Source: Myxococcales bacterium (GTDB lineage: Bacteria > Myxococcota_A > UBA9042). From it: a DNA stretch of 37,394 nucleotides. The notes below the pieces were generated by a model, which saw only the letters and a list, made by a program, of their open reading frames with translations, ran no database searches and was not told the origin of the DNA. Location of the stretch: positions 1 through 37,394 of the forward strand of contig JAGSHB010000042.1 of the NCBI GenBank assembly GCA_023954815.1. The letters are read 5' to 3'. Below are positions 3,119-17,426 of the stretch, piece after piece. A program made the position numbers and the translations under genes. Position 1 is the stretch's first letter, and each line of letters starts with the position of its first letter.

Positions 3119-3354
3119 CTGACGCGCGATTCCTACTTGCCTGCCTACGAGCGCTAACGAACGGGGGGACAACTCCGGCGGGGCCTGAATCTACGCGCGT
3201 TGAGCCATCGTGCCAACTCTCTGAGCGGTGACAATTCGGACCCTCTTGGGGTGTCCATACACTGGCCCTGTGCGTGTTCGTCCGGCTTTTGATTGACCGC
3301 TTCGCTGCAGCCGCGCCAATCTCCACCTCCGAATTGCTGATCCGAGAGGTCTTG

Positions 3355-6300
3355 ATGCGCCATTTGCCTGTTGTCCTGCTGTCCCTGGCGCTTGCCTTGT
3401 CGCCGATTTTCGGTTGCAGCTCAGAGACGTCTTCATCGTCTGAGGATGCGGCCGTCAAAACTGATGGCGGCACCGATGGCGGGACCACGGCAGACGGCGA
3501 AACCGAGGCCGATAGCGCGGCCACCCAGGACATCGCTACCCCCGATTCAACAGCGACAACGCCAGATGCGGCGGCGGGCGATGCTGGAAGCGATGGCGGA
3601 ACCGACGGCGGAGCCACCCCTGACGCGAACATCGATCCCTGCACTGCCACGACCGGCGGCCTGAAAAAGACCATCGGGATTCCCCTGGGCGAGACCCTGC
3701 ATTTCTCCGGTGACGACTACCTCGCATTTTGGGGCAAGGATCGGCCGTGTGCGGTGCAGTTGGTCGACAAACCCAAAGGTGCGCAGGCAGGTCTCCTCGG
3801 TGGCGGGACACGGCTGACCCCGGATGTTGCGGGCAATTGGCAGATCCAGAGCGGCGCCGACGTGATCACCATCACCGTGATCGAGAACTACTGGAACGCC
3901 GACACCTTCCAGAACTTCAACTACTCGCCGACCTCGCCGATCGCAGTGCAGATGACCGGCAAGGCCAAGAGCGTCATCTGGATCGCGGCGCCCACCTCGT
4001 GCTTGGTCCAGCAGGTCGATCTGACAGACGCCGGCGCCAAGATCGTCAAGACGGTGCGCACTGGCGCTTGGCCAACCGCCGTCGCTGTGTGGCCCGGCAC
4101 GGACTTCTTGCTGGTGACCCAGACGGCGAGAGACAGCATTGGTTTCCTCAATACCAAGACCGGCGTGCTCGAAGACGCGGTGCTCGTCGGCAATGAGCCG
4201 GCCAATATCGTGCTGGAAAAAACCGACGGAAAGCCCCCGAAGTTCGCCTATGTCGCGCTATCGGGCGAAGACAAGGTGGCGAAGTTGGATCTGCAGAGTC
4301 GGCAGATCGTGGCGACGGTCAGCGTCGGGCGTGATCCCCGCGCGATGACGCTGGTCGGGCAGACGCTCTATGTCGCCTCGCTCATCTCATCCAATACCCA
4401 CCCGCGTGGGCCCAAGCAGCTCAAGGACAAGAAGACCGGCGAGAAACACCCGGTGCCCGAGTTCATGCAGCGCGATGTTGCCGCGATCGATACGACCACC
4501 ATGAAAGTCAGCGGCTGGGCGCGCGAGGTCGGCACCATTTTGCGTGGCGTGTTCATGCAGCCGGCTCAGGGCAAGGTCGCTAGCCGTCTGTTGGTGGCGG
4601 CGACCTTCGCGGACAATACCAAGCTCATGGTCGACGCCAATACGCGGCCTCATGCGCACCACCTCGTCGCGCTAGATCCCGATAAATTCAGTCTTAAAGC
4701 GCCAGGCAAGGCCGAATCTGCGGTGGTGACTGACATCGATTTGGACAAGCAGATCCACGGGGCTGGTGCCGCGGCGAGCCCGTACACCATGGCCACGACG
4801 CCGGATGGCAACTACTTGGTGGTCAGCCTGAGCGCGAGTCGCGGGCTGCTCTTTCTCGATCCCAAGACCTTGGCCGAGCGGGGCCGTATCAAGACCGGTC
4901 ACGACCCCCGCGGGTTGGTGTTCGCCCAGGGTCGCGTGTGGACCTACGCTTGGCTCAGCGACACGCTGGAGGGCGTTCCACTCCCCGGCGCGCCGACGGA
5001 GGTTGAGGTCAACGCTGGCGGTTTGGGTGGCGGCAAGGGCGGCAAGACCAAGATCAAGATCTGGAAAATGGGTCCGCTGGGACCTGCGAAACCGGTGAAG
5101 CTGACCATTGGCAACGATCCGACGCCGAAAGAGGTGCGTGCGGGCCAGCGCATCTTCAACGACGCTGAGTTTTCAAAGTTCGGCCAGTTCTCCTGCAACA
5201 ACTGCCACGTCGATGGGCTGACCGACGGGCTGACGTGGGATCTGCTCATCGACGGTCCGGTCAACACGTTGGCCTTTCGCAACGTCGGCGGAACCGATCC
5301 CTTCCTGTGGGGCGGGCAGCTGCCGACGCTCTTCGACTTTTCCCGGGAGGTGCTCAAGCTCGTCGGCGCGCAGGCCAGCGGCAAGCAGATGGAGCAGCTG
5401 ACCCAATACATGATGAGCGTCACCGCGCCGCCCAACCCCTTCGCGCTGCCGGGTGGCAAGCTCACCGCTGACGCGAAAAAGGGCAAAGTGTTGTTCAACG
5501 AGTTCACGAGCAAAGGTGGCGGCGAGTGTGCGGGCTGTCATGGCGGACCTTTGGGTACGACCGGCATCACGGTCGACGGCAAGACACCGGATGAGAAGAC
5601 CGACGTACCCAGCCTGCTCGGCGTCTACGACACGGCTCCTTACGGCCGCCAAGGCCAGTGGGCCACGCTCTCGGAGATGGTCGACTACGCCCTTGAATTT
5701 ACGGGCGCAAAGCTCTCGGATAGCGAGCGGAAGCAGGTGACTGCATTCGTGGCGCAGCTGCCCGGCGACCTGCTCACGCTCAACAGCGCGACCCCCGCCA
5801 ACAACGCCAAGTACGTGTGGAAGGGCACGGCTGTGGAGCTGATCTTCAGTCATGTGATGGCGCCCGGTCAGGAAGACAAGTTCACCATCGTCACGGGCCA
5901 GGGCTCGAAGGCCAAGCCACTGCCAGGATCGTGGAAGCTCAGCGGCCGTTATGCGCGCTTTACGCCAACGAGCCCGCTCACAGCCAACACGGTCTACGGC
6001 ATCACGGTCGCTGCGGGTCTCCAGGGTACGTTTGGCCAGCACCTGCCCTCGCAGTTGGTGTTGGGGTTTGAAACCGGCGGCACGCCTGCCTTCGATGTCT
6101 CCGGCCAGTGGAAGCTCACGTTGCAAAACCAGCTGGTCGGCAAGATCGGCGTGGACATCGCCCTGCTCATGGCCAAGGGCGGAAAGTTCACCGGTGTGCT
6201 GCTCGACAAATTCGAGGAAGGCAACGTCGGCGCCGACGCGGTGGCCGGAGTGGTCAGCGATAAGGTCTTGGTACTGGAGCCTTTTTACGTCGACTCACAG

Positions 6301-6471
6301 TTCGGCAAGTTCTTCGTCAAGGACGGCATCAAGTCGAACATGACCGATGGCAACAAGGACGGCTATGCAGATGCAGGCGTGGGCAGCTTCGACTTCAAGT
6401 TTGGCAACACGGTCTACAAGGTCAACGTGACCTGGAAACGCACGGCGCTTCCCAAAACGACGGCGCCATAG
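3355..6471 (+). CDS. Lipoprotein with beta-propeller-like region, two c-type heme motifs and Ig-like domain
   Basis: This is a 1038-residue exported redox protein. The start is ATG 3355, with GAGAGG just upstream. It begins with a lipoprotein signal ending SPIFGC (Cys21), followed by a low-complexity Asp/Gly/Thr/Ala linker to about residue 95. Residues around 150-540 contain repeated strands of the YVTN/lactonase beta-propeller kind (surface-cell-antigen style, such as VVATVSVGRDPRAM and RIKTGHDPRGLVF). Two heme c attachment sites follow: CNNCH (Cys614) and CAGCH (Cys725), in a di-heme cytochrome c peroxidase/MauG-like arrangement. After that comes an Ig-like Big_5-type domain (NSATPANNA, about 810-910) and a C-terminal beta-rich domain. 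Likely location is the outer membrane or periplasm, attached by lipid. Substrate and electron partner are unknown. The gene stands alone and is followed by a hairpin element. Confidence 0.88.
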   Translation: MRHLPVVLLSLALALSPIFGCSSETSSSSEDAAVKTDGGTDGGTTADGETEADSAATQDIATPDSTATTPDAAAGDAGSDGGTDGGATPDANIDPCTATTGGLKKTIGIPLGETLHFSGDDYLAFWGKDRPCAVQLVDKPKGAQAGLLGGGTRLTPDVAGNWQIQSGADVITITVIENYWNADTFQNFNYSPTSPIAVQMTGKAKSVIWIAAPTSCLVQQVDLTDAGAKIVKTVRTGAWPTAVAVWPGTDFLLVTQTARDSIGFLNTKTGVLEDAVLVGNEPANIVLEKTDGKPPKFAYVALSGEDKVAKLDLQSRQIVATVSVGRDPRAMTLVGQTLYVASLISSNTHPRGPKQLKDKKTGEKHPVPEFMQRDVAAIDTTTMKVSGWAREVGTILRGVFMQPAQGKVASRLLVAATFADNTKLMVDANTRPHAHHLVALDPDKFSLKAPGKAESAVVTDIDLDKQIHGAGAAASPYTMATTPDGNYLVVSLSASRGLLFLDPKTLAERGRIKTGHDPRGLVFAQGRVWTYAWLSDTLEGVPLPGAPTEVEVNAGGLGGGKGGKTKIKIWKMGPLGPAKPVKLTIGNDPTPKEVRAGQRIFNDAEFSKFGQFSCNNCHVDGLTDGLTWDLLIDGPVNTLAFRNVGGTDPFLWGGQLPTLFDFSREVLKLVGAQASGKQMEQLTQYMMSVTAPPNPFALPGGKLTADAKKGKVLFNEFTSKGGGECAGCHGGPLGTTGITVDGKTPDEKTDVPSLLGVYDTAPYGRQGQWATLSEMVDYALEFTGAKLSDSERKQVTAFVAQLPGDLLTLNSATPANNAKYVWKGTAVELIFSHVMAPGQEDKFTIVTGQGSKAKPLPGSWKLSGRYARFTPTSPLTANTVYGITVAAGLQGTFGQHLPSQLVLGFETGGTPAFDVSGQWKLTLQNQLVGKIGVDIALLMAKGGKFTGVLLDKFEEGNVGADAVAGVVSDKVLVLEPFYVDSQFGKFFVKDGIKSNMTDGNKDGYADAGVGSFDFKFGNTVYKVNVTWKRTALPKTTAP

Positions 6472-6566
6472 CAGTGTGCGGCGTAATTAAAATTACTGTC
6501 GCAGCACACTGCTAGTTTCCTTCATTATTGGGGGGCTAAGAGCGCCCCCAGCCGCGGCAAGCCGCG
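6471..6566. repeat. Intergenic hairpin element, copy 1 (terminator-like, related to 19644-19746)
   Basis: The element starts at the last base of the preceding stop codon. A perfect nine-base stem, GCAGTGTGC at 6471-6479 with GCACACTGC at 6504-6512, encloses a 24-base A/T-rich loop that has its own inner hairpin GTAAT/ATTAC. A pyrimidine-rich tract (TTTCCTTC) follows directly, which gives an intrinsic-terminator look. Next comes a 26-base block at 6521-6546 that matches 19688-19713 at 22 of 26 positions, then GGGGGC/GCCCCC (6531-6536 with 6544-6549) and CGCGGC/GCCGCG (6553-6558 with 6561-6566) hairpins. It lies between convergent genes. Termination is a plausible role, but the conserved block beyond the T tract suggests something more, such as a processed RNA or a repeat family. 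Confidence 0.7.
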
Positions 6567-6667
6567 ACTTCCCCATCCCAGCAGCCTGCGCCCCAAACGC
6601 GTCCTTCTCCGAAAAATCGAGAAAAAGCGCAGTCTGATAGCATTCCGATCAAACGGGCCATCCAACC

Positions 6668-7783
6668 CTACGAGACCAGCGCCTGCCAACGCGAAAGGCA
6701 GGCGTCCATCGCGTAGTGAACTGCGATCTCATTCGCTGCTTTTTTACCGGATTTACGGGTCTTTTTGCGGTGGTTGGCTGCATCGCAGAGCGCGGCTGCC
6801 AGCCCCTGGACGTCCCCGGGCGGAACCTTGGCGAGCGCGTGCTCCAAGTCAGCGGCAGCACCCACATCGGTGCCCACAACCGCGCAACCCACGGCCGCCG
6901 CTTCCAGTACGGCCATCCCTTGGCTCTCCCACCACGACGTCTGCGCGATCACATCCCATTTGGCCGCCATGCTGGTCAGTCGCTGATACGGGACGGCGCC
7001 CACAAAGCGGGCGTCGACGCCCAGCCGCTGCGCTTGGCGCGTCAACCTGGCTCGCAATGGTCCGTCTCCTACAACAGTCACTTGCAATCGGGTACCCCTG
7101 TGCCCAGCCGTGGCCGCCGCCGACAGCAGCAGACCGGGCGCCTTCACCGGCAGGAGGGAGGCGACGAGCCCCACCCGTAGCGGGGCGTCATCTCCTTGCG
7201 GTTTCGGCCTCTGGCTCTGGGATTGAATCACGCGATCGGGCAGGGGCAACGGCATCTGGGTCGTCTTGGCGCGCCACCGTTCGGGCACCCGGTCTGCCAA
7301 CCAGGGGGAGCCAACGGTGACGTGATCGGCATGGCGGAGGGCAGATTGCACCAACCAAGGGCCGAGGCCTTCCAGTCGACCGCCGTAGGGCACGGCAGGC
7401 AATCGGGCCAGCTCGCCGCCCATCAGCGAGACGATGGTGCGCGCACCGAGCGCCCGGCCAGCCAGCACAGCGACCATGCCGGGCTCGTCGGCCCAGAGTC
7501 CTTGCACCACGTCGAACGGACCCGCCCGCACCACCGTGGCGACCGCGCGGGCCAGCAGGGACAACCGACCGGCGCCAGAGATGTCTGCCCCACCGAGCGG
7601 AATGACGCGCAGTGGGCCGAGCGTGTAGGGAGTATCGGAGTGAGGAAACCGCAGACTGACGACGGTGACGTCGTGGCGGCCACCCAATGCCGTGGCCCAG
7701 GCGCGCAACGCCGGGATGCAGTTATCCGCCGTGTCCGTCGAAAACCCAGGAACGACCAGGCACACGCGCAGGGGCTGGCTCAC
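6668..7783 (-). CDS. Glycosyltransferase family 4 protein
   Basis: This enzyme transfers a sugar from a nucleotide-sugar donor to an acceptor, probably a lipid-linked or surface glycan, at the cytoplasmic face of the membrane. It is 371 residues long with the GT-B fold pattern: an N-terminal acceptor domain starting LRVCLVVPGFS, a glycine-rich LMGGELARLP loop, a linker, then LRVGLVASLLPVKAPGLLL and VVGDGPLRARL in the donor domain, and the retaining-enzyme EX7E motif in ESQGMAVLE. The start chosen is GTG 7783, which overlaps the stop of the upstream gene as GTGA; the open frame runs further upstream without typical family sequence. It is the last gene of the long minus-strand run, and its role there fits glycan assembly. 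Sugar specificity is unknown. Confidence 0.9.
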   Translation of the reverse strand: MSQPLRVCLVVPGFSTDTADNCIPALRAWATALGGRHDVTVVSLRFPHSDTPYTLGPLRVIPLGGADISGAGRLSLLARAVATVVRAGPFDVVQGLWADEPGMVAVLAGRALGARTIVSLMGGELARLPAVPYGGRLEGLGPWLVQSALRHADHVTVGSPWLADRVPERWRAKTTQMPLPLPDRVIQSQSQRPKPQGDDAPLRVGLVASLLPVKAPGLLLSAAATAGHRGTRLQVTVVGDGPLRARLTRQAQRLGVDARFVGAVPYQRLTSMAAKWDVIAQTSWWESQGMAVLEAAAVGCAVVGTDVGAAADLEHALAKVPPGDVQGLAAALCDAANHRKKTRKSGKKAANEIAVHYAMDACLSRWQALVS

Positions 7784-8433
7784 CAGCCGACACCGAGTGA
7801 GATACTCGAAAAGGGCTGAAGGGCCGCCATGGGAGTGATCAGCTTGCGGGCTCCCGGCAGCCATGCTGCGCCGGCCTTCAGGTCGCCGACGAACTCGAAC
7901 CCCAGACCGATTGGGCGCGTCCATTGCACCCCGACCGCTGCTTCGGGGCCGGCGGTCTCAATCGCGTCTTCCACGTCTGGATCGCCAAAGTCGAAGCCAG
8001 GTTCGTCCGGCGCGAGTTGGAGTTCCGCCATGCCCAGGCCCACCCGCAATTTGAGCAGCTGATCGCCGAAGCGCCAGGACATCGCGGAGACATTGAGTCG
8101 AAAGTGAGCGATTTCGGCGCCGGGGTCGCTGTGCAGGATGCCGCTGCCCGTGCCGCAACTTTCAATCGATACCCGCTCGAGAGGCGACAGCTCGACACAG
8201 ATCGTCGGGCGACCGTTGGTGCTGCTGGTCGCGGCGCCAGCGCGCATGTTGAACCACGTGCGGGCGGGCGGGGCTGCTTTGGTCAGCTGGAACTGGCCGC
8301 TGAGCTGGGCATGGGCCGACGTGGGGGCGAGTAGCGGACAGACGAAAAGAGGCAAAATGGCCGATAAAACCAGGTAGATTATGCGGTTTCGCCTCATCTG
8401 TGATGACTGCCATCTGTGTGCGGTCAAGCCCAT
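7780..8433 (-). CDS. Exported protein, probable outer-membrane beta-barrel-like
   Basis: The family is not recognised. The 217-residue protein starts at ATG 8433, with GGAG five bases upstream. It has a long N-terminal region and a signal peptide (hydrophobic residues about 18-37, cleavage likely after AHA at 40-42). An internal ATG at 8397 would give a more standard signal peptide but lacks a ribosome site. The mature part is rich in alternating hydrophobic/polar residues, glycine and aromatics (WFNMRAGAA, LKLRVGLGMAELQL, IGLGFEFVGDLKAGAAWL), and ends in ISLGVGW, an aromatic C-terminus as in outer-membrane barrels. Its length would fit an eight-stranded barrel. It is coupled by GTGA to the GT4 gene, which may point to surface glycan export or anchoring. 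Confidence 0.7.
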   Translation of the reverse strand: MGLTAHRWQSSQMRRNRIIYLVLSAILPLFVCPLLAPTSAHAQLSGQFQLTKAAPPARTWFNMRAGAATSSTNGRPTICVELSPLERVSIESCGTGSGILHSDPGAEIAHFRLNVSAMSWRFGDQLLKLRVGLGMAELQLAPDEPGFDFGDPDVEDAIETAGPEAAVGVQWTRPIGLGFEFVGDLKAGAAWLPGARKLITPMAALQPFSSISLGVGW

Positions 8434-8551
8434 TTCTTCTCCGACAAACGCGGGCCAATCTCCAGCCGTTGGCGCGTTCGGCCCTCATTCCATGCCCGAT
8501 CGCCAGCTCAATCGCAATCACGCATCACCCCAATGACATGCACGGGTGGAA

Positions 8552-9256
8552 TCACGGCTGTTGTGACGAGGGGTTCGTCGCCACGAGCGTCCAGATCAAC
8601 AGGGCGAGCGCCGGAAGGCCCAGTGCGGCCCACACAGCGAGCTCCGGCGCTGCAGCCGACGCCGCGCCGGCACCGGCTACGGCGTACACACAGCTGATCG
8701 GTGCGGTGCCGATGGCTGAGAGTGCGGCGAACTTTCGGGCTGACATGCGGGTGAGGCCTGCCAAGCACGAGACGGTCTCCGTCATCATCGGAACCGCCCG
8801 TGAACTGACGATGAACCAGCCGCCGACCTGGTCCGTGCGATTCGCGACTTTGGCCGCCTCATCGGCGCCGACGTAGCGCTCAAACGCGGCCTGCCCGTAG
8901 CGCCGGCACAGGGCGAATCCAGCCATCGCGCCGGCCATCGCGCCCACAAAGTTGGCGAGCGCGCCCCAAATCGGCCCAAGCATCCACCCGGCGGCGGTCA
9001 TGACGACACTGCCGGGCACGGGGAGGATCAAATCGGCAGCGAGCAAGCCAACGACCAATGGCGCGATCACAGCGCGGTCGTTCGCCCACCGGTCGAGCCA
9101 CTGTCGCGCCGCGGCTTCATCGGTCAGGCCCAAGACGGTGGCGAGGGTAAAGCTCACGGTGAACAGGACGATGAGGAGGAGTCCGATTTTGCCGAGGCTA
9201 CGCAGACCGCTGCGGCCGCCACTCACTGGGCTTGGTCTACGGGGCAACCCGCGCAA
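8552..9256 (-). CDS. VTT-domain (DedA/TVP38 family) membrane protein
   Basis: This is an integral inner-membrane protein of the VTT/DedA superfamily, whose members are linked to undecaprenyl-phosphate or phospholipid transport across the membrane. It has a first hydrophobic helix at about residues 22-44. The VTT core has a re-entrant-type segment LPVPGSVVMTAAGWMLGP (79-95) and a glycine/alanine-rich helix GALANFVGAMAGAMAGFAL, then a second helical hairpin after SRAVPMMTETVSCLAGLTRM, and C-terminal helices at about 180-226. The start at ATG 9256 has GAGG six bases upstream and overlaps the previous gene by 34 bases. GTG 9226, which forms a GTGA overlap with that gene's stop, is an equally possible start. 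A link to lipid-carrier recycling for the glycosyltransferases in this run is inference. Confidence 0.85.
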   Translation of the reverse strand: MRGLPRRPSPVSGGRSGLRSLGKIGLLLIVLFTVSFTLATVLGLTDEAAARQWLDRWANDRAVIAPLVVGLLAADLILPVPGSVVMTAAGWMLGPIWGALANFVGAMAGAMAGFALCRRYGQAAFERYVGADEAAKVANRTDQVGGWFIVSSRAVPMMTETVSCLAGLTRMSARKFAALSAIGTAPISCVYAVAGAGAASAAAPELAVWAALGLPALALLIWTLVATNPSSQQP

Positions 9257-9654
9257 TCGCGCACCATGTTGGCCTCGCGCTCAGCTGGAACGGCGCCGTC
9301 GGTGTGCCATGCGGCGCCAACGACGGCTTGCACGTCGCCGTCGGGGCCCAGCACGGGGATGGCGATGGCGGCTTTGGCGTCGACCGCCTTGGCCCCTGGG
9401 CGCACATTGCCGGACTTGTCGTCCTTGAGGTTACAGGTCTGTACCGGTGCCTTCGCCAGCTGGGCAGCGCCAGCCATCCCCCGGCCGTGGGGTACATGGC
9501 GGACCGCCGCGATGACCGGCGGCGGAATGGCGATGGCTGCCGCGAGATGCAGATCGCCCTGTTTGGCGACATGCACTGTACCGGCGCTAGCACCGTGATC
9601 GGCGAGAAATTGAGTCAGCCAGCGCTGCAGCGGGGTGTTCGTCCATGGGGGCAT
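9223..9654 (-). CDS. Small GAF-domain protein
   Basis: This 143-residue cytoplasmic protein consists of little more than one GAF domain. The pattern of an N-terminal helix, GTVHVAKQGDLHLAAAIAIPPPVI, then VPHGRGMAGAAQLAKAPVQTCNL, then AKAAIAIPVLGPDGDVQAVVGAAW is that of GAF sensor modules (compare GMAG and the VP/IPV strands). GAF domains bind small ligands or act as redox or phytochrome-like sensors; no ligand can be named. Several cysteines (QTCNL, DCAGC near the C-terminus) could give redox sensitivity, which is inference. The start is ATG 9654, with GGAG seven bases upstream. It lies 46 bases after the GT39-like gene and overlaps the VTT gene, so it is in the same transcript and may tune that pathway. 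Confidence 0.83.
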   Translation of the reverse strand: MPPWTNTPLQRWLTQFLADHGASAGTVHVAKQGDLHLAAAIAIPPPVIAAVRHVPHGRGMAGAAQLAKAPVQTCNLKDDKSGNVRPGAKAVDAKAAIAIPVLGPDGDVQAVVGAAWHTDGAVPAEREANMVRDCAGCPVDQAQ

Positions 9655-9700
9655 CTGTGTTCTCCACTGTTTGATCAGCACGGTCGACTTTCGGGGTGAG

Positions 9701-11182
9701 CTAGCGTCGAGTCAACGCCCAGATGGTCCATTGATCGACCTGCTTGAGCTTCGTGAGCCGACCGTGTTGGGCCAGCCAGTCGAAGTTCAGCGCCGGACCG
9801 CGGCCGCGCCATTGCCCGGCGAGGTCTTGACCGCTGGCGACTACAAAACTTGGCTGCTTTGACGGCCATTTCTGCTCGAGTACAGGCGGCGGCGTGGTGG
9901 CGAGTTCGAGGACTGCGCGGCCGGTGCGTCCCGCCAGATCAGCGGTGAGTCCAAATGCGAAGATCTGGGCGCGTTTGGGGAGGAGTTGGTCGATTTGCAT
10001 GGCTGCCGCACGGCGACTAGCTGCCATGTCGAGGTGACGAACGATCACCCGAGGAGCCCACACAACCTGCACAACGATGGCTAGTACCAATGCCGTCTTG
10101 ACCCAGCGCCGCTGCCACATGCGCGCCGCACCCAGCCCAGCGAGCAGCGCCCACGGCGTGATCGCCAACAGGCCAAAGCGAAAGTTCTGGTACGGCATGC
10201 CTGCGAAAAACAGCCAGACGGCGAAGGTCCAGGCGAGCAAGACCGCCCCCCCAGGCCCGCGCTGGCGGGTGAAATAGAGCGCTGCTGGAGCAGCGAGAAA
10301 AAAGCTGAACGTGCCCAAATAGCCCGGATGAATCGCCGAAAAAGCGGCAAATACGCCTTGCGGCCAGCGATAGGAGGCGGCGCCGTCAACCGTCTCGAAG
10401 GTGGACTGCCACATGTGCCACGGCCGCCAGCCTGTAAGCCATGGATGGGCAATGCCGCTCTCCGGGGCGCTGAGCCAGAGGATGAGCTGCGGAACCAAGG
10501 CCAGACTCAGGGCAATGACGAGTGTAGCCAACACCCGCCGGTCAGATAGGTGCCAAACGGCGCCGATCGCGAAGGCCGGGAGCAACAGACCACAGGCGAG
10601 GCGGGTCGATAGCGCAAGGGCCAGCAGGGCGCCGCATGCCGCGGCCCAGGCGATGCGAGGCCATGCGCTGGCCAGTGTGTCTTCGCCGGCTTTGCCCAGA
10701 CAGACCAGCGCACCGGTGACCGCGGCCGTAGCCAGGGCATCGCTCGTCGCACACATCGACCACAGCACATGGACCGGCGAGAGCATGACGAGCAGCGCTG
10801 CCACGCGCCCGGGCGTCTGTTCGTGTTGCGGCCACCAGGCTCGCGCCGCCAGCCAAACCAGCGGCACGGTCGCCGCCCCAGCCAAGAGACTGGTCCACTG
10901 CAAGGCCGCTGGCAGCGCGACGCCAAGGGTGCTCAGCAAAACCGCAGTGGCGGGATAACCCTGGGGCCAACGGGCGATGGGCAGCTCTCCGCCGCCGAGC
11001 CAGGAGACGATGGCGTGGGCCTGGGTGAGGTAGCCCCAGGGATCTTGGCCCCAGAGGCCGTCAAAATCGAAAACCGACTGGATGCCGACACGGATGGCGC
11101 CCGCACCGACAAACCAAGCCAAGCACAGCAGCGCGGTGTGGCCGGGGCTCGCTCGCCCAATGTTGCCAGGCGCCCTATGCAC
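9701..11182 (-). CDS. GT39/ArnT-like polytopic glycosyltransferase (GT-C)
   Basis: This 493-residue integral membrane protein has about nine to eleven hydrophobic helices and a soluble C-terminal tail of about 100 residues. The first outer loop carries an acidic cluster, DFDGLWGQDPWGYLTQA, which matches the catalytic Asp region of GT-C enzymes (ArnT/PMT type). These enzymes use polyprenyl-phosphate-linked sugars on the periplasmic side. The start chosen is GTG 11182, which overlaps the end of the methyltransferase gene by eight bases; the open frame extends upstream only as an antisense-like artefact of that gene. It sits inside the radical SAM/methyltransferase run, so it may decorate the product of that pathway. 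Donor and acceptor are unknown. Confidence 0.85.
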   Translation of the reverse strand: MHRAPGNIGRASPGHTALLCLAWFVGAGAIRVGIQSVFDFDGLWGQDPWGYLTQAHAIVSWLGGGELPIARWPQGYPATAVLLSTLGVALPAALQWTSLLAGAATVPLVWLAARAWWPQHEQTPGRVAALLVMLSPVHVLWSMCATSDALATAAVTGALVCLGKAGEDTLASAWPRIAWAAACGALLALALSTRLACGLLLPAFAIGAVWHLSDRRVLATLVIALSLALVPQLILWLSAPESGIAHPWLTGWRPWHMWQSTFETVDGAASYRWPQGVFAAFSAIHPGYLGTFSFFLAAPAALYFTRQRGPGGAVLLAWTFAVWLFFAGMPYQNFRFGLLAITPWALLAGLGAARMWQRRWVKTALVLAIVVQVVWAPRVIVRHLDMAASRRAAAMQIDQLLPKRAQIFAFGLTADLAGRTGRAVLELATTPPPVLEQKWPSKQPSFVVASGQDLAGQWRGRGPALNFDWLAQHGRLTKLKQVDQWTIWALTRR

Positions 11183-11975
11183 CGCTGGCGTCCCGGCGTC
11201 GCAGCACCAACGCATAGTGATCACAGAGTGAACGGCACGGCGGCAGCCCAGCGATACGCGCTTCGAGCTGGGCCGCGGCGCCAAAGAGCCGAGGAAAGCG
11301 ACCGACGAGATGACCGGCTTCGCTGATCGGCAGGAGCACGCCCAGGCCTTCGGTGTGCACGACTGAAAAGCTGGCCGCGGCCTCTGACGCCAGGGTTCGC
11401 CACGACGGATACCAGACCCGCACCGTGCTGCCAGCGCCTGCATTGGCCCGGCCGCCCTGGCCACGCCGGCGCGTGGCTGCCCGCAATTGGCCGTGGGCGC
11501 CGAACCAGAGCCAATCCCACGGCGCCAGCGGCGCCATCACCACCAAGACGACGGTGCCACCCGGGCGGATGCGTGTCGTGAGCCATTGCCACAACGGTCC
11601 GCGGTCGGCGATGCAGTTGAGCGGGCCAAAGCTTGACCAAGCGCCGTCGAACTGGCCCGGCGCGTTCTTTGGTAGGGCCGGTGCTGCCAGATCCAAAGCG
11701 GCGGTTTGAAGCTGAACGCCCTGTTTTTCAGCCTTTTTGCGCGCAACCGACAGCATCTCCTCGCTTTGGTCGGTCGCCCAGACACGGGCGCCGCGCCCAG
11801 CTAGATGGACGGCGTCGTGGCCCGTGCCGCACCCCAACTCCAGCAGTTGTCCATCGGTGGGCAGGTGCTGGTCCAACAGGGTCCACAGGCGTTCGCGCAG
11901 CAACGCCCCCAACGGCGTCGTCGTAAAATCGGCGTCATACGCTCCGGCGATGGCGTCGAAGGCGGCCGGGCTCAC
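11175..11975 (-). CDS. SAM-dependent class I methyltransferase
   Basis: This soluble methyltransferase of 266 residues has the Methyltransf_11/25 pattern. Motif I LELGCGTG is at residues 46-52, the acidic residue of motif II is in VWATDQSEEML, and motif III-like GGTVVLVVMAPLAPWDWL follows. The start is GTG 11975, overlapping the stop of the upstream radical SAM gene as GTGA; the stop overlaps the GT39-like gene. The substrate is unknown. Its position between a radical SAM enzyme and a membrane glycosyltransferase suggests methylation of the pathway intermediate, which is inference. Confidence 0.9.
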   Translation of the reverse strand: MSPAAFDAIAGAYDADFTTTPLGALLRERLWTLLDQHLPTDGQLLELGCGTGHDAVHLAGRGARVWATDQSEEMLSVARKKAEKQGVQLQTAALDLAAPALPKNAPGQFDGAWSSFGPLNCIADRGPLWQWLTTRIRPGGTVVLVVMAPLAPWDWLWFGAHGQLRAATRRRGQGGRANAGAGSTVRVWYPSWRTLASEAAASFSVVHTEGLGVLLPISEAGHLVGRFPRLFGAAAQLEARIAGLPPCRSLCDHYALVLRRRDASGA

Positions 11976-13399
11976 GTTTGGCTCTCACGCTGCACGCGCT
12001 CACCGGCTGTCCATCGCATCCCGGCGCGGCCGATCTGCGCGCTCAGTCTCGCTTTGACCAAGCGGGCTTCATCGCGGGGTGAACGGTCGATTTGGTTGTT
12101 CAAGCGACTAGCGTTGACGCTGCCCACCATCCACCGCGTCGCGAAATCGTAGTAGCGGCGGCTGTGGCGGCCGACCACGTCAAAATCACGGTCCGAGCCT
12201 TCTGCCCACGGCTTGCGCGAGACGATGCGATCTTTGACCTGTTCGAAGTAGGGCGTGTTCTTGATCGGATAGCTCACCGTGGTCAGAAAGACGTCTGGTG
12301 CGGCCTTTTTCAACACGCGCACGGTCTCTTCAAGGTCTTGCAGCTCCTCGCCGTCGTAGCCGAGCATGATGAACATCCCCGCCTGAATCCCGCGCTTTTG
12401 CAGCCCATGCACCATGTCGATGACCCGACTCGCGTCCGTCTTGCGCTTCATCTTGTCGAGGACCCGCTGACTGCCACTCTCTGCGCCGACCCAAATGCGG
12501 TAGCAGCCCATCTCGGCCAGGGTGTCCATGGTCGCTTCGTCGAGCCGGTCTTCCCGTGTGATCGTCTCAAAAGGGCGACGGATACCGCGGCTGGCCAGCT
12601 CATCAGCGTATTGTCGCAGCCACTTCCGGTGGATGGTGAACACATCGTCCGCGTACCAAACCAGCTCCGGATTGTAGCGATCGACGATGTGACTGACCTC
12701 GTCCGCCACATTGGCTGGTGACCTGCGCCTGTGGCTGTGGCCGTACACCGCGTGGCTACACCACGTGCAATGGAAGGGGCATCCCCGTGCCGTAATCAGG
12801 CTCACCGACCCCTGGCCGTGATGGCGTCGCCACGTCCGCACGTAGGCGTCGATGTCGACGAGATCTCGCGCTGGAAAGGGCTGCGCATCCAGGTTGGGAA
12901 GCTGTCGCCTGGGCATGTTGCGGATGACTTCCCCGGTCGTATCGCACCAGATGAGCCCCGGTATTTGACTGAGATCATCGGCTGCTTTGCCGGCGTGATC
13001 GCCCCAATGAGCCGCCAGCTCGGTCAGGGTCTCTTCCCCCTCCCCAATGGCGACCGCATCCGCGCCATGCATGAGGTAGCGCTCCGCCCAATTCGCTGGA
13101 TCTGGGCCGCCAACGACCACTTTCGCACCGACCTGCTTGGCCGCTGCAATCATGGCCAGCACCCGCACCCGGGTCAGCATGTTGGCGTAAATCCCCACGA
13201 CCCGCGGCCGGCTTTCCTGGAGCGTGCGAATGAAGTCGCCCGTCGCCATGAAGGTGCTGTCGAACACGCCGACATCGACGCCCTGAGCCCGCAAATGCGA
13301 GGCGATATAGAGGATGCCGAGCGGCGGATAGGGCCGCATCGTCTGTCGTTCGTGGGGGTCATCCCAGAGGTGGTAGCCGTGGGTCAGCAGCACATGCAT
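11972..13399 (-). CDS. Radical SAM protein with B12-binding-like N-terminus (first paralogue)
   Basis: This is a 475-residue iron-sulphur enzyme of the B12-binding radical SAM group (BchE/methyltransferase-like). The N-terminal 140 residues have the Rossmann pattern (YPPLGILYIASHLRAQGVDVGVFD, then VGAKVVVGGPDP and GADAVAIGEGE), but no DxHxxG motif that would ligate cobalamin. The [4Fe-4S] motif CPFHCTWC has Cys207, Cys211 and Cys214. Downstream is a typical ESGSQRVLDKMKRKT element of the radical SAM barrel and YPIKNTPYFEQVK. The start at 13399 has AGGAG eight bases upstream. It lies 27 bases after a second, clearly related radical SAM gene and overlaps the methyltransferase gene. The reaction is unknown. 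Confidence 0.92.
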   Translation of the reverse strand: MHVLLTHGYHLWDDPHERQTMRPYPPLGILYIASHLRAQGVDVGVFDSTFMATGDFIRTLQESRPRVVGIYANMLTRVRVLAMIAAAKQVGAKVVVGGPDPANWAERYLMHGADAVAIGEGEETLTELAAHWGDHAGKAADDLSQIPGLIWCDTTGEVIRNMPRRQLPNLDAQPFPARDLVDIDAYVRTWRRHHGQGSVSLITARGCPFHCTWCSHAVYGHSHRRRSPANVADEVSHIVDRYNPELVWYADDVFTIHRKWLRQYADELASRGIRRPFETITREDRLDEATMDTLAEMGCYRIWVGAESGSQRVLDKMKRKTDASRVIDMVHGLQKRGIQAGMFIMLGYDGEELQDLEETVRVLKKAAPDVFLTTVSYPIKNTPYFEQVKDRIVSRKPWAEGSDRDFDVVGRHSRRYYDFATRWMVGSVNASRLNNQIDRSPRDEARLVKARLSAQIGRAGMRWTAGERVQRESQT

Positions 13400-13426
13400 C
13401 GGGAGCTCTCCTGACGTCGTGCGCCG

Positions 13427-14956
13427 CTAGTTCGGGTCCTGTGGGGTCGGCGCAGCAGCCTCGGCGAAGGTCATACCACCGCTGAGATCAGGCGCCCCGT
13501 CGTGGGCCATGGCCGCCAGACGGTCCAGCGTGCGCTCGGCCAGGGGCAACGACAATCGGTCCCACGCCATCCGCGCCGCTCGTTTGAGCACTTTGCGGCC
13601 CACCGGCAGCTCACCGGCGCGCAGCTGTCGCCAGATCTTGGCGCTGCGATATTCCTTGTGAATCACCGTGTGCAGCTGGCGATAGAACGCCGTGTTGAAC
13701 GGGCCCTTGTAGAGCATGTCCAAGTCCGACGAGTCGACCCAGTTCTGTTTGTCGCCGAGCTGTGAGCGCACCCGCTCATAAAACGGGGTCCCGGGGAGCG
13801 GATAGCTGACGGAAATGCCGATATCATCGGGCTTACAGGTCCGAATCATCTGGCGCGTGAGCTCGATATCCTCGCGCTGTTCACCCGGGTAACCGAACTG
13901 CAAAAAGAAGGCGACACGCACCCCCGCGGCATGGAGCCGTTCGGCGGTCTGCTCGATGTGTCCGACCTCGGTGCCCTTGTCCATGGCGTCGAGCACCTTC
14001 TGACTGCCGCTCTCGGCGCCGATCCAGACGATGTCACAACCGGCGCTGGCCAAGGCCTCGATCTCCCCGCGACGCAGCAGCAGATCGGCCCGGCTCAGGC
14101 ACTTAAATGGCCGGCTCACACCACGGGATTTAGCGAGCTCACCATAGCGCGACAACCAGCCCTTCTTCAGGCCCATGATGTCGTCCATAAACCAGATATG
14201 ATCGGGGTTATAGCGTTCGACGAGCGCCGCCTGCAGCTCGACGATTCGCTCCGGACTGTGGCTGTTGTAGCGCTGGCCCCAGATCGGTTTGGCGCACCAA
14301 TTACAGTGAAAAGGGCAGCCGCGTGTGGTCACCAAATTGAGCGAGAAGTAGCCGTGGTGGGCCTGCCAAAGGGCACGGTAGGGCTCGATGTCGATGAGGT
14401 CCCAAGCAGGCATGGGCAGCGCATCGAGCTCCCGCATGACTGGGCGCGCTGGCGTCTGCTGCAACCCGGCGCCGGTCTGCCAGGTCAGCCCCAAGATGTC
14501 CGTTAGTTTTGTCTCCGACCCTTCGAGATGCAGCATCAGCTCCCGCAGCGTCGCGTCTCCCTCACCGCGAATGACAAAATCGGCCCCCGCATCGAGGTAC
14601 GTCTTTGCGTGGTCGGTCGCATCCGAGCCGCACACGATGACTTTAGCGCCGCGGCTGTGGGCAGCGCGGATCATCGTCAGCGCAGCGTCGCGCATCCGAG
14701 TCAGACACATCTTCGAGAGATAGTTGAAGTTGTCTTCGAAGAGCACGGCATAGCGCGGATTGTGGGTCGTCAACGCCTGGGTGAACTGCACCTCGCTGTC
14801 GGCCAGCATGGCGTCAAACACAGCCACATCGAGGCCCATTTCACGGACCACTGCAGCTGCCTGCAGGCTACCCAAAGGCGGGTAGGGCGCCATGGCATCC
14901 CACAGCTTTGGATCGAACCGCAGGAAGTAGCTCTGACCAAATAGCACGTCACTCAT
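13427..14956 (-). CDS. Radical SAM protein with B12-binding-like N-terminus (second paralogue)
   Basis: This 509-residue protein has the same architecture as the neighbouring radical SAM protein. The N-terminal B12-binding-like region starts APYPPLGSLQAAAVVREMGLDVAVFDAM, followed by GAKVIVCGSDATDHAKTY and GADFVIRGEGD; again there is no DxHxxG. The cluster motif CPFHCNWC uses Cys214, Cys218 and Cys221. The barrel contains WIGAESGSQKVLDAMDKGT and SYPLPGTPFYERV. The tail has an extra C-terminal segment of about 60 residues ending in a Pro/Ala-rich stretch. The ATG start overlaps the nucleotidyltransferase stop (ATGA). The two paralogues share many identical blocks, so they probably arose by duplication and may act on successive steps or as a pair. 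Confidence 0.92.
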   Translation of the reverse strand: MSDVLFGQSYFLRFDPKLWDAMAPYPPLGSLQAAAVVREMGLDVAVFDAMLADSEVQFTQALTTHNPRYAVLFEDNFNYLSKMCLTRMRDAALTMIRAAHSRGAKVIVCGSDATDHAKTYLDAGADFVIRGEGDATLRELMLHLEGSETKLTDILGLTWQTGAGLQQTPARPVMRELDALPMPAWDLIDIEPYRALWQAHHGYFSLNLVTTRGCPFHCNWCAKPIWGQRYNSHSPERIVELQAALVERYNPDHIWFMDDIMGLKKGWLSRYGELAKSRGVSRPFKCLSRADLLLRRGEIEALASAGCDIVWIGAESGSQKVLDAMDKGTEVGHIEQTAERLHAAGVRVAFFLQFGYPGEQREDIELTRQMIRTCKPDDIGISVSYPLPGTPFYERVRSQLGDKQNWVDSSDLDMLYKGPFNTAFYRQLHTVIHKEYRSAKIWRQLRAGELPVGRKVLKRAARMAWDRLSLPLAERTLDRLAAMAHDGAPDLSGGMTFAEAAAPTPQDPN

Positions 14957-15948
14957 GAGCGCTCTCCGCCCAGGCCTTGTGCCGCCGCGCGTGTCTTGTG
15001 TCTGCGCCGTAGCCGTTTGCCCAGCGCGCGTTCAAACCTGTCTTCCAACAGACCCCATTCATGGAGCCTGTCGCGGTACTTCGTGACGATGTCTCCGCGG
15101 TTATCGGTCGTATGTAGCTTCAAAATGCCCGGTCTGAGCAGCACGTCCGCGGTTCCCGCGCGGTCGGCTTGACCCTGCAGCCGCCTGCCTAAAAACGTGC
15201 GCGCGCCGCGTTCGAGCAGCCACAGCTGCGGCCACAAACCCAACTCCAGACCGCGCCGCAGCAACGGTTCCGCCGGCAGGGATTCCCACAGGCGCTCTGG
15301 TCCTCGGGCGCTGGCGTTCGGCATCAACCGCTCCACCCAGGCGTTCTTCTGGACCATATGCGCGAGCCAGCGCTCTCCGATGAGCGGCCGCAGGGCCATC
15401 AGCTCGTGACCGGTGAAGAGATCTCCCCCGTCCGGCACCGTCACATGCACGCGATCGACCAGGTAGTTCGCGCACAAGACGTCGCGGCAACCCAGGGCCC
15501 GCGCCAGCACCACCATGAGCGTGTACACCGTCCAGGCGCGACCCTTTTCGGCGACGATGAACAGGTCCAGGTCGTTGTCGTTGACGGAGTTTTTACGGCT
15601 GGTGCCGCCCGAAAAAGCGACCATGCGCACGTAGGGCATCGCACTCAACAGCCGTAGCACCGTGATATGGCGCTGGATAAGCGCATCGGTCTGTTCTCGT
15701 TGTCGATTGCGGCGTTCACACAACGCCGACCGGCCGATGAGGTGGTACAGCCCGCCGGTTTCTTCGATCTTGTCGTGCAGCCAGACGTCGGACCGCAGTC
15801 GCTGGGCCACATCGCCGAGGTCCGCACGCACGAGCAGCAGCTGCCGATGAATCTCTTCGGCCCGCATGGGAAAGTCGAATAGATCGGCATACAAGATCGC
15901 CCGCAAAATGGCGCCGGTCAGTTCATCTGGCTGTGCCACTTGAGTCAT
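14953..15948 (-). CDS. Nucleotidyltransferase-fold protein with N-terminal helical region
   Basis: This 331-residue cytoplasmic protein looks like a polymerase-beta-type nucleotidyltransferase. The key block is FSGGTSRKNSVNDNDLDLFIV, where the GG pair (114-115) is followed by Asp124, Asp126 and Asp128, matching the GG/S...DxD metal-binding signature. The first 70 residues form a winged-helix-like region (AILRAILYADLFDFPMRAEEI). The remaining C-terminal part is helical and very basic at the end. It heads the nine-gene minus-strand run and is coupled to the second radical SAM gene by ATGA. No strong ribosome site is visible before ATG 15948. It may activate or transfer a nucleotide onto the pathway substrate, or act as a regulator. 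It is not a known sugar-nucleotide pyrophosphorylase by motif. Confidence 0.8.
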   Translation of the reverse strand: MTQVAQPDELTGAILRAILYADLFDFPMRAEEIHRQLLLVRADLGDVAQRLRSDVWLHDKIEETGGLYHLIGRSALCERRNRQREQTDALIQRHITVLRLLSAMPYVRMVAFSGGTSRKNSVNDNDLDLFIVAEKGRAWTVYTLMVVLARALGCRDVLCANYLVDRVHVTVPDGGDLFTGHELMALRPLIGERWLAHMVQKNAWVERLMPNASARGPERLWESLPAEPLLRRGLELGLWPQLWLLERGARTFLGRRLQGQADRAGTADVLLRPGILKLHTTDNRGDIVTKYRDRLHEWGLLEDRFERALGKRLRRRHKTRAAAQGLGGERS

Positions 15949-16190
15949 GGGGGCATCTCATCGGAATTTGGGCGGGGACATTCTCTAACCTCAATAGCGT
16001 CCGTCGGCGGGCCATGCAAGACGCGAGCGATCAACTCAGCGCGGTGACAGCGGCATTTGGGGCGTGACTCGTTGGCATCGAGTCGCCTTGCTGCGAGGCA
16101 GGTGGGTTGCGACCGGCCTGAGATAGATCCGACGTGGACTTGGTGCGTCGAAGCTGTGTGAGGCCGTGTGCCCGAATCCGAGGAGACCTA

Positions 16191-16511
16191 ATGCAGCATG
16201 ATGATTCGACAGACAAAGATACCAATCGCCAGGTCGGGCTGGACCCCGATGAGGCGCAGCTCGCCATCGCTGCAATGGCTGTGGCGACCGATGCGACGAA
16301 ACCAGATCGCTTGTTCTGGGTGATCGGTGTGGTGGCTGCGGCGCTGTTGGGCGTGCTCGCGCTCGGCGCTGCCGCTCAGGCACGTTTTTCCGACAGCCTG
16401 ACGTTTCTACATCAGTCCCGGTCAGTGCCAGAGCCTCTCTACGCTGCGAGTTGGACTGAACCACCGCGTACCCTCGACGACATCATCGCCTCCATCAAGG
16501 CCGAGCGATGA
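16191..16511 (+). CDS. Small single-pass membrane protein of unknown function
   Basis: The family is not recognised. The start is ATG 16191, with a strong AGGAG six to seven bases upstream. The 106-residue product has a hydrophilic N-terminus (1-40) with many Asp, Gln and Thr, one transmembrane helix at about residues 41-63 (FWVIGVVAAALLGVLALGAA), and a 40-residue outer tail rich in Ser, Pro and Trp. The charge pattern (basic KPDR just before the helix) predicts N-in, C-out topology. It is divergent from the nucleotidyltransferase gene and convergent with the CarF-like gene, ending 25 bases from its stop. The shape is compatible with a small anti-sigma-like or signalling partner of the neighbouring sigma-like gene, but nothing in the sequence proves that. 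Confidence 0.65.
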   Translation: MQHDDSTDKDTNRQVGLDPDEAQLAIAAMAVATDATKPDRLFWVIGVVAAALLGVLALGAAAQARFSDSLTFLHQSRSVPEPLYAASWTEPPRTLDDIIASIKAER

Positions 16512-16536
16512 CACGAGCGATTGGAGCGCGAATAGC

Positions 16537-17247
16537 TTATGAATGTGAGCTTTTAGCGTATTTTGGGTCTTGGTAGGCTGCCATGCCGGTCACTCGCTCG
16601 ATGAGCGTCTCGGTGCGCTGCCAGAAGCGAATCCTATCCAAACCTGGGTTCAGCCAACCGCTGGTGATGCAGTAGTACTTATCGTGCGGCGCCGTGTGAT
16701 GAACATTGTGATGATCGGCCGCGAGCACGATCCCCGCGCGCTGCAGCCTAGCGATGAGCGCCGGCACGTCGTCTTGGTGGGCCCACTTATGAAACTGGTT
16801 GGTGAGGAACACCCAAAAAGCCAGGCTCACGAGCGCGGTGAACGCAAAGAGTCCCAAAGAGCTATCGACGCTGATGAACCACGCCGACGCCATGAGCGGC
16901 ACCGTCACGATGGAGTTGTTGCCGTTGGTCTCGATGAAGTCGTGGTACGTCATCCCCTTTGGGTCGCTGTGGTGCTCCCGGAAGGGTTTTACGTAGTTCT
17001 GGCCGACGAACGGCGTGGTCTCTGTGCCGTATCTGTCGGCCATCCAGTGCACAAAGCCCGAGCAGAAGTCCGCCATGACATAACCAAAGAACACCGCAGC
17101 GGCGATCCACGCAAATTGCGCACCAGATGCGGCGCCGAACGCGCGGTGGGCTCCGGCGCCGACCAACGAAAAGAGCATTGTGATCGCAAGGATCTCAGCC
17201 GCACGGTGGGCTGGGGAGTAATCATAACTGCGCTTGCTGTCTGCCAT
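16537..17247 (-). CDS. carF: Plasmanylethanolamine desaturase (CarF/TMEM189-like)
   Basis: This 236-residue integral membrane di-iron-type desaturase is expected to introduce the vinyl-ether double bond that makes plasmalogens from ether lipids. The match to human TMEM189 (PEDS1) and myxobacterial CarF is plain by eye: DFCSGFVHWMADRYG (60-74), VKPFREHHSDP (86-96), HDFIETNGNN (102-111), HKWAHQ (153-158), and HHNVHHTAPHDKYYCITSGWLN (179-200). The conserved histidines are H67, H92, H93, H102, H153, H157, H179, H180, H183, H184 and H188. Hydrophobic segments lie at about 18-36, 44-60 and 115-148. It is read away from the sigma-like gene at 17492. In Myxococcus xanthus CarF is needed for the carotenoid light response through a sigma/anti-sigma pair, which makes that neighbour notable. 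Confidence 0.92.
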   Translation of the reverse strand: MADSKRSYDYSPAHRAAEILAITMLFSLVGAGAHRAFGAASGAQFAWIAAAVFFGYVMADFCSGFVHWMADRYGTETTPFVGQNYVKPFREHHSDPKGMTYHDFIETNGNNSIVTVPLMASAWFISVDSSLGLFAFTALVSLAFWVFLTNQFHKWAHQDDVPALIARLQRAGIVLAADHHNVHHTAPHDKYYCITSGWLNPGLDRIRFWQRTETLIERVTGMAAYQDPKYAKSSHS

Positions 17248-17426
17248 CGATGACTCTCACTCTCGCCGCACTACCTAGCAAATGCCGATTCGGCGCCCGC
17301 GAGTGTACTCCCAGGGGCGTCCGTGTAAACCTGGATCTTCACAGTCGCACATCGAGTTGCTTGTTGATTCGCTATGCTCGTCAGTGCGATCGAATGTGGG
17401 CGTTGGGAGCTTTGATCGTTTCAATG

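Follow-up and report, generated by a model that had tools for sequence, protein, structure and literature searches.

Radical S-adenosylmethionine (SAM) enzymes that bind cobalamin (B12) have been described chiefly in connection with natural products, cofactors, proteins and lipids. Fom3, of the fosfomycin pathway, methylates 2-HEP-CMP, a cytidylylated substrate (from an excerpt of PMC8158854), and OxsB contracts the furanose ring of dAMP, dADP or dATP (from an excerpt of PMC13331322). Here, we describe a run of nine genes in a 37,394-nucleotide stretch of DNA from a Myxococcales bacterium (“the window”: contig JAGSHB010000042.1 of assembly GCA_023954815.1; host genome of 6.44 Mb in 314 contigs, called G000 below), in which two predicted enzymes of this superfamily, radical SAM A and B, are encoded with a nucleotidyltransferase-fold protein (NTF), a methyltransferase (MT) and two glycosyltransferases, one GT39-like and one of the GT4 kind. 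These six genes form a conserved core, which is probably part of a surface-polysaccharide pathway, of the O-antigen or exopolysaccharide type, for the synthesis and use of a single unusual sugar. Literature searches, thin on subscription journals, did not find a description of such a locus.

All nine open reading frames (ORFs) lie on the minus strand and are read from 15948 to 6668. The tight, one-directional arrangement given in the preliminary description of this DNA therefore holds, with junctions that range from −41 to +118 bases. The mechanically assigned ORF starts of GT39 (11464) and GT4 (7924) are likely too early, and overlaps and alignments place them near 11215 and 7786 instead. With the starts trimmed, the junctions are −4 (NTF/radical SAM A), +27 (radical SAM A/radical SAM B), −4 (radical SAM B/MT), −41 (MT/GT39), +19 (GT39/GAF), −34 (GAF/VTT), +118 (VTT/OM, the largest gap) and −7 (OM/GT4). 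A scan of positions 6300–17300 gave 0 sigma-70 promoters against 1.5 expected and 13 terminator-like sites against 8.0 expected, and was not informative. The genes of the run and their upstream neighbour are as follows.

14953..15948, minus strand: NTF, predicted winged-helix and nucleotidyltransferase-fold protein, 331 residues, first core gene (structure model, alignment)
13427..14956, minus strand: radical SAM A, predicted B12-binding and radical SAM domains, 509 residues (Pfam above cut-offs)
11972..13399, minus strand: radical SAM B, predicted B12-binding and radical SAM domains, 475 residues (Pfam above cut-offs)
11175..11975, minus strand: MT, predicted class I SAM methyltransferase, 266 residues (Methyltransf_25)
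9701..11215, minus strand: PMT/GT39-like membrane glycosyltransferase, about 504 residues (PMT_2 just below cut-off)
9223..9681, minus strand: GAF-like protein, insert (GAF_2 below cut-off)
8552..9256, minus strand: VTT/DedA-family membrane protein, insert (VTT_dom)
7780..8433, minus strand: putative secreted or outer-membrane (OM) protein, insert (sequence features only)
6668..7786, minus strand: GT4 glycosyltransferase, last core gene (Glyco_trans_1_4)
16537..17247, minus strand: Lipid_desat protein, upstream neighbour outside the core (PF10520, 194.5 bits)

Judged by gene order in its relatives, the run is a conserved core of six genes (NTF, radical SAM A, radical SAM B, MT, GT39, GT4) with three inserts (GAF, VTT, OM), because GT39 adjoins GT4 without GAF, VTT or OM in three other genomes (G001, G002 and G003; G- and L-numbers denote the genomes and loci compared). 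The same two genes also adjoin in Latescibacterota and Anaerolineales. The core is present in all four genomes of the genus that were searched, except for G003, whose contigs are interrupted and in which five of the six genes were seen, without MT. G001 has the desaturase, NTF, radical SAM A, radical SAM B, MT, GT39 and GT4 in that order, with no gene between the last two, and in G002 the six genes are spread over three contigs. Within family f1, radical SAM A was found at ≤1e-60 in the four genomes of this genus (g1) and in G014 only, of 22 searched.

In the phylum searches, only a few candidates were scored per genome (seven in A2; five in A3, A4 and for single proteins; three in A6). A profile search with NTF gave 29 loci in Acidobacteria, Chloroflexota, KSB1, Latescibacterota, Levyibacteriota, Myxococcales and some unassigned bacteria, in many of which NTF adjoins radical SAM A, followed by radical SAM B and MT. 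Latescibacterota carry GT4–NTF–radical SAM A at one contig end and radical SAM B–MT–GT4–GT39 at another, and Anaerolineales UBA2200 has NTF–radical SAM A–radical SAM B–MT with GT39 and GT4 about 8 kb further on. In KSB1 and Latescibacterota, GT4 and NTF are fused into a single ORF of 713–722 residues (L039, L042 and L052; ORFs at 8801, 8816 and 8780). Some clusters, here called superclusters, add further B12-binding radical SAM genes (C and D), a SPASM radical SAM gene, GNAT, PIG-L de-N-acetylase, Wzx and Wzy. The run is thus beyond chance, since the order NTF–radical SAM A–radical SAM B–MT–GT39–GT4 recurs in other genomes and in another phylum.

The neighbourhoods were counted in two sets of loci. 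Radical SAM A occurred in 25 of 400 Chloroflexota genomes, always at ≤3.6e-176, and all 25 loci were examined (24 retrieved and L045), with related glycosyltransferase and radical SAM queries assigned by best score. Of these loci, 21 have NTF on the same strand and no more than 5 kb away. MT is present in 22 (in 20 at that distance and orientation), Wzx- or Wzy-like genes in 21 and radical SAM D in nine. All six core genes were found in one (L295), in the window order with extra genes interspersed. The second set comprised 50 NTF loci, among which GT4 lay within 3 kb in 26, always on the same strand, and radical SAM A within 3 kb in 18; either was found in 37 and neither in 13. For this count, duplicates of G001–G003, G014 and G023 among the named loci (L035–L038, L061) were dropped, L024 and the NTF matches of G201, G219, G274, G117 and G261 were left out, and 20 of the 25 other Myxococcota NTF loci were included.

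NTF had no match in Pfam, NCBIfam or PHROGs. In its AlphaFold2 (AF2) model, with a predicted local distance difference test score (pLDDT) of 89, residues 4–72 resemble winged-helix domains, while residues 85–207 align to kanamycin nucleotidyltransferase (KNTase), or ANT(4'), at Z 7.5–7.6, a range classed as unsafe by the tool. The alignment to 1kny covers 113 residues (Z 7.5, root-mean-square deviation (RMSD) 3.4), and the matches to KNTase and MntA are weak yet consistent. G114, N120 and D128 are invariant in an alignment of 24 rows, and D126 is present in at least 90%. NTF thereby shows the G...DxD motif in a nucleotidyltransferase-like fold that marks the pol-beta nucleotidyltransferase superfamily, in agreement with the fold proposed for it earlier, as far as a predicted structure can tell.

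Radical SAM A and B each have PF02310 (B12-binding) and PF04055 (Radical_SAM) above cut-off and a CX3CX2C motif, and from this Pfam architecture both are predicted members of the B12-binding radical SAM superfamily. They are 37–39% identical to each other, as expected of the paralogous pair first described. The motif cysteines are invariant in both (C214, C218 and C221 of radical SAM A in 11 rows; C207, C211 and C214 of radical SAM B in four rows). Radical SAM A is 51–62% identical to Chloroflexota and Acidobacteria homologues over long stretches, and radical SAM B is 52–59% identical to its counterparts in the loci found with the NTF profile. Assignment to a named NCBIfam family (BchE, PhpK, HpnR, HpnJ, rSAM_ladder, ApyD, AprD4 or MJ_0865) was rejected, all scores being far below cut-off; the best were 133.1 against 481.35 for radical SAM B (BchE) and 109.7 against 750 for radical SAM A (ApyD). 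The model of radical SAM A (pLDDT 81) matches OxsB, AprD4, MgmA, TsrM, CysS and TokK, all at Z 20–24, the nearest solved structures being OxsB (Z 24.2) and AprD4 (Z 23.8). According to the entry titles, the substrates of OxsB and AprD4 are modified at a sugar ring, and MgmA, TsrM, CysS and TokK act on protein, tryptophan or carrier-bound substrates. The likeness to the first two may be taken as a hint of a sugar substrate.

In a tree of 62 radical SAM rows, assigned to A or B from rows with at least 330 aligned residues and with three long-branch rows kept, 30 rows form an A clade (support 100/99) and 29 a B clade (support 89/94, below the starred level), with three rows outside. Each clade contains one sub-clade made up of the window genus, G014, Chloroflexota and Acidobacteria, and another of other Myxococcota families; in clade A, G277 groups with the first. 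The window copies are thus nearer to copies from other phyla than to most of those from the Myxococcota, a pattern that fits horizontal transfer or differential loss. Radical SAM D was noticed first as a neighbour in Chloroflexota and Acidobacteria. The window genome has an unlinked copy, 53.5% identical to that of L048. Radical SAM C, the third such gene in the superclusters, lacks a near match in the loci examined from the window genome (27–28%).

G000:C53:23644-25131 (L301:16845-18335): radical SAM D, predicted B12-binding radical SAM protein in the window genome

The contig that carries radical SAM D also encodes a repeat-rich protein of 3118 residues (L301:1094-10450, minus strand), with IPT/TIG-like and VCBS-like repeats recognized by eye.

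Of the remaining core proteins, MT matches Methyltransf_25 (55.4 bits, cut-off 27), and the corrinoid protein-associated methyltransferase CpaM did not reach its NCBIfam cut-off (58.4 against 180). GT4 matches Glyco_trans_1_4 (68.9 bits, cut-off 27). The first reading of both, and of the VTT protein, is thus confirmed above the Pfam cut-offs. The GT39 call is more qualified: the window protein scores 25.2 against the PMT_2 cut-off of 26.1 bits, but two of the four orthologues tested with PMT and PMT_2 pass (L247, 27.9 against 26.1; L235, 37.4 against 22.7), while L027 and L251 fall below. An FDGxxGQDxxxY motif is invariant in six rows of the GT39-like family, and no PHROGs match was found for the protein.

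Within the Myxococcota, the genes travel together more than they sit together. Among 282 genomes, NTF was found in 31, radical SAM A in 20, radical SAM B in 26 and radical SAM D in 25. NTF shares 24 genomes with B, 19 with A and 23 with D; A shares 19 with B and 17 with D, and D shares 23 with B. Every genome with D carries B or NTF. For the B counts, the truncated gene of G003 was added by hand, and the radical SAM A locus of G277, which was also in the B list, was left out. At the level of genera (187), the association has p = 1e-12 for B with NTF and p = 9e-14 for D with B, values that ignore kinship. A control, another B12-binding radical SAM protein of the window genome, occurs in 13 genomes, four of which have NTF, and three of those belong to the window genus. 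NTF, A, B and D thus co-occur, though they are mostly dispersed, and the association does not reflect one linked block, because NTF does not adjoin the radical SAM genes in family f32. There, a block of eight genes lies between the A-like and B-like genes (FBPase, hydrolase, kinase, aldehyde dehydrogenase, DUF429, peptidase M1 and two unmatched), a make-up that gives no hint of a glycan.

In the pathway that we propose, NTF, which we infer to be either an activator or a tag maker, would move a nucleotide onto a sugar or sugar phosphate, which would then be activated as a donor or carry a handle of the kind that CMP provides for Fom3. Radical SAM A and then B (and D, encoded elsewhere) would alter the carbons of the sugar with B12 and SAM, by C-methylation, ring rearrangement or deoxygenation, and MT would add an O- or N-methyl group. 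On the cytoplasmic face, GT4 would attach the sugar to a lipid-linked chain, and, on the outer face of the inner membrane, GT39 would add a sugar from a polyprenyl-phosphate donor. Wzx and Wzy, if used, would be encoded outside the run: neither was found in the run or among the window proteins scanned, though both occur in relatives. The polysaccharide-type neighbours elsewhere (Wzx, Wzy, GT2, GT4, PIG-L and PMT) lend good support to the earlier suggestion of a glycan that is synthesized in the cytoplasm and completed outside. Because the GT4–NTF fusions suggest that NTF hands its product straight to GT4, a more specific scheme may be put forward tentatively, although we doubt it somewhat: in a widely shared polysaccharide pathway not described before, three or four B12-binding radical SAM enzymes would work in series on one nucleotide-activated sugar, NTF would be a new kind of sugar activator passing its product to GT4, and the result would be a new carbon-modified sugar.

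Several observations weigh against the proposed pathway. Radical SAM B, GT39 and GT4 are each in the minority at the 25 Chloroflexota loci (seven, four and five, respectively). Five of the 24 NTF genomes from other phyla have no radical SAM match at 1e-60 (in G292, radical SAM A is cut at a contig end), and four from the Myxococcota sample (G023, G038, G253 and G261) have none of the three radical SAM genes; NTF is therefore more widespread than the radical SAM genes. Seven of those 24 genomes have A without B, G156 and G239 have B and D without NTF, and G003, G043 and G164 have B without D. The co-occurrence statistics take no account of kinship. The fold of radical SAM A cannot select a substrate, since all six solved enzymes match at Z 20–24. 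For NTF, the best fold match (Z 7.6) falls in the range called unsafe, and a clear third catalytic acid was not seen, an invariant C159-x-N161 occupying the next strand. The preliminary description had taken homologues scattered singly among unrelated neighbours as a sign against a functional set, and such scattering is found in part: in G014, NTF, radical SAM A and radical SAM B are on separate contigs, three in all, and none of them lies within 4 kb of a contig end, and the core genes are scattered in f32. However, the genes co-occur in the same genomes and are clustered in Chloroflexota, Acidobacteria and Latescibacterota.

The f32 loci, where NTF stands with GT4, GT2 or a Wzy-like gene without an adjacent radical SAM gene, would suit a different role for NTF, that of a decorator resembling LicD or fukutin, which places a phospho-alcohol or nucleotide on the finished glycan, while the radical SAM enzymes would act in another branch of that pathway. 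A nucleotidyltransferase fold is known for LicD. We consider this unlikely, since NTF and radical SAM A are close together in 18 of the 50 NTF loci and 21 of the 25 radical SAM A loci, and NTF has no LicD match in Pfam; LicD and fukutin are not among the fold matches listed either, which does not count as an exclusion.

The upstream Lipid_desat gene, 588 bp from NTF, raises another alternative, a glycolipid or ether-lipid pathway in which the radical SAM enzymes modify a lipid that GT4, GT39 and VTT decorate and move. The gene lies upstream of NTF in all four genomes of the genus, including that of the window, and its product (PF10520) presumably resembles the plasmalogen desaturase CarF. The radical SAM proteins also have sub-threshold NCBIfam similarity, at 83–108 bits, to the lipid-annotated HpnR, HpnJ and rSAM_ladder_B12 (ladderane-associated), but these scores are far below the curated cut-offs of 360–650. 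The 588 bp gap, the lack of any desaturase match in the G014 stretches examined and the Wzx/Wzy/GT2/PIG-L polysaccharide genes next to the core in other phyla also argue against this pathway, which we regard as quite unlikely. A lipid product, the other half of the earlier suggestion, found no direct support beyond the desaturase neighbour, which is conserved within the genus; the reading of a lipid product from that neighbour was rejected, being unsupported outside the genus. Near the desaturase in G003 and G001 there are also tandem pairs of paralogous proteins of about 640–680 residues (L025:6698-8629 and L027:4259 onward), one of which was tested and had no Pfam match.

A diffusible product, similar to an aminoglycoside or nucleoside, rather than a cell-surface polymer, might be read from the structural matches of radical SAM A to OxsB and AprD4, from the nearness of the NTF fold to ANT(4') and from PIG-L and GNAT in the superclusters. 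It is improbable, however, given that 21 of the 25 Chloroflexota loci carry Wzx or Wzy, that GT4 is fused to NTF and that no nonribosomal peptide synthetase (NRPS) or polyketide synthase (PKS) domains were seen among the scanned neighbours. Finally, a chance run of unrelated housekeeping genes in one operon would accommodate the unconserved GAF, VTT and OM genes and the dispersal in G014, but it is scarcely credible and already contradicted for the six core genes by the order kept across phyla and by a strong co-occurrence that the control B12-binding radical SAM does not share.

The GAF-like protein scores 25.3 bits against the GAF_2 cut-off of 28.6. The VTT protein exceeds that of VTT_dom (75.3 against 33.9), while a role as DedA/UptA undecaprenyl-phosphate transporter is not indicated by the UptA equivalog (29.2 against 250). 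The OM protein has no Pfam, NCBIfam or PHROGs match; its sequence has a signal-peptide-like start and a C-terminal Trp, and its homologues in G002 and G018 are unlinked to the core. Core membership was rejected for all three, because none of them separates GT39 from GT4 in relatives and the OM homologues are unlinked; they were previously counted as parts of one set, but lie outside the conserved one, as inserts found at the window locus only.

Downstream of the run, a protein of 1065 residues with di-haem peroxidase/cytochrome and bacterial Ig-like domains is encoded at 3274-6471 on the plus strand, convergent with GT4. G003, G002 and G014 have homologues close to the same genes, and in G003 a cytochrome/MauG-like gene follows, as in the window; other c-type cytochrome genes come after NTF in KSB1. 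Further downstream, on the same strand as the run, an NAD-dependent epimerase/GDP-mannose dehydratase-like protein (957-1976, minus strand) could supply sugar nucleotides.

A recurrent set of B12-binding radical SAM genes in polysaccharide loci of several phyla, together with an NTF family not covered by any Pfam model, indicates sugar chemistry at the cell surface that is as yet unexplored. If the more specific scheme above is correct, bacterial surface glycans contain a carbon-modified sugar of a new kind. The core set is a short list of candidate genes for functional work, and its Myxococcota copies are dispersed yet co-inherited.

Among described systems, Fom1/Fom3 is similar in that nucleotidyl transfer comes ahead of a B12-binding radical SAM enzyme, Fom3, which methylates 2-HEP-CMP (as given in the excerpt of PMC8158854). 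It differs in making a phosphonate antibiotic, without glycosyltransferases. To our knowledge, the transferase domain of Fom1 is not of the pol-beta fold. AprD4, a radical SAM diol dehydratase solved with paromamine, resembles radical SAM A in fold over 416 residues (Z 23.8, RMSD 3.6) and has an aminosugar substrate, but AprD4 is not known to need cobalamin, and the NCBIfam AprD4 scores are 55.4 (radical SAM A) and 78.1 bits (radical SAM B) against a cut-off of 500. TIGR04295 (B12_rSAM_oligo, a hypothetical equivalog), in whose name we take “oligo” to denote an oligosaccharide context, is likewise a B12-binding radical SAM family, but the scores of 65.9 and 72.8 bits lie far from its cut-off of 400. 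OxsB aligns with radical SAM A over 436 residues (Z 24.2, RMSD 4.7) and modifies the sugar ring within a nucleotide (as given in the excerpt of PMC13331322), but belongs to a nucleoside antibiotic pathway and is 17% identical to radical SAM A. Wzx/Wzy-dependent polysaccharide loci share the Wzx, Wzy, GT2 and GT4 neighbours seen in Chloroflexota; the loci described here differ from them in having one to four B12-binding radical SAM genes each and an NTF without a Pfam model, and, in the window, a run without Wzx or Wzy.

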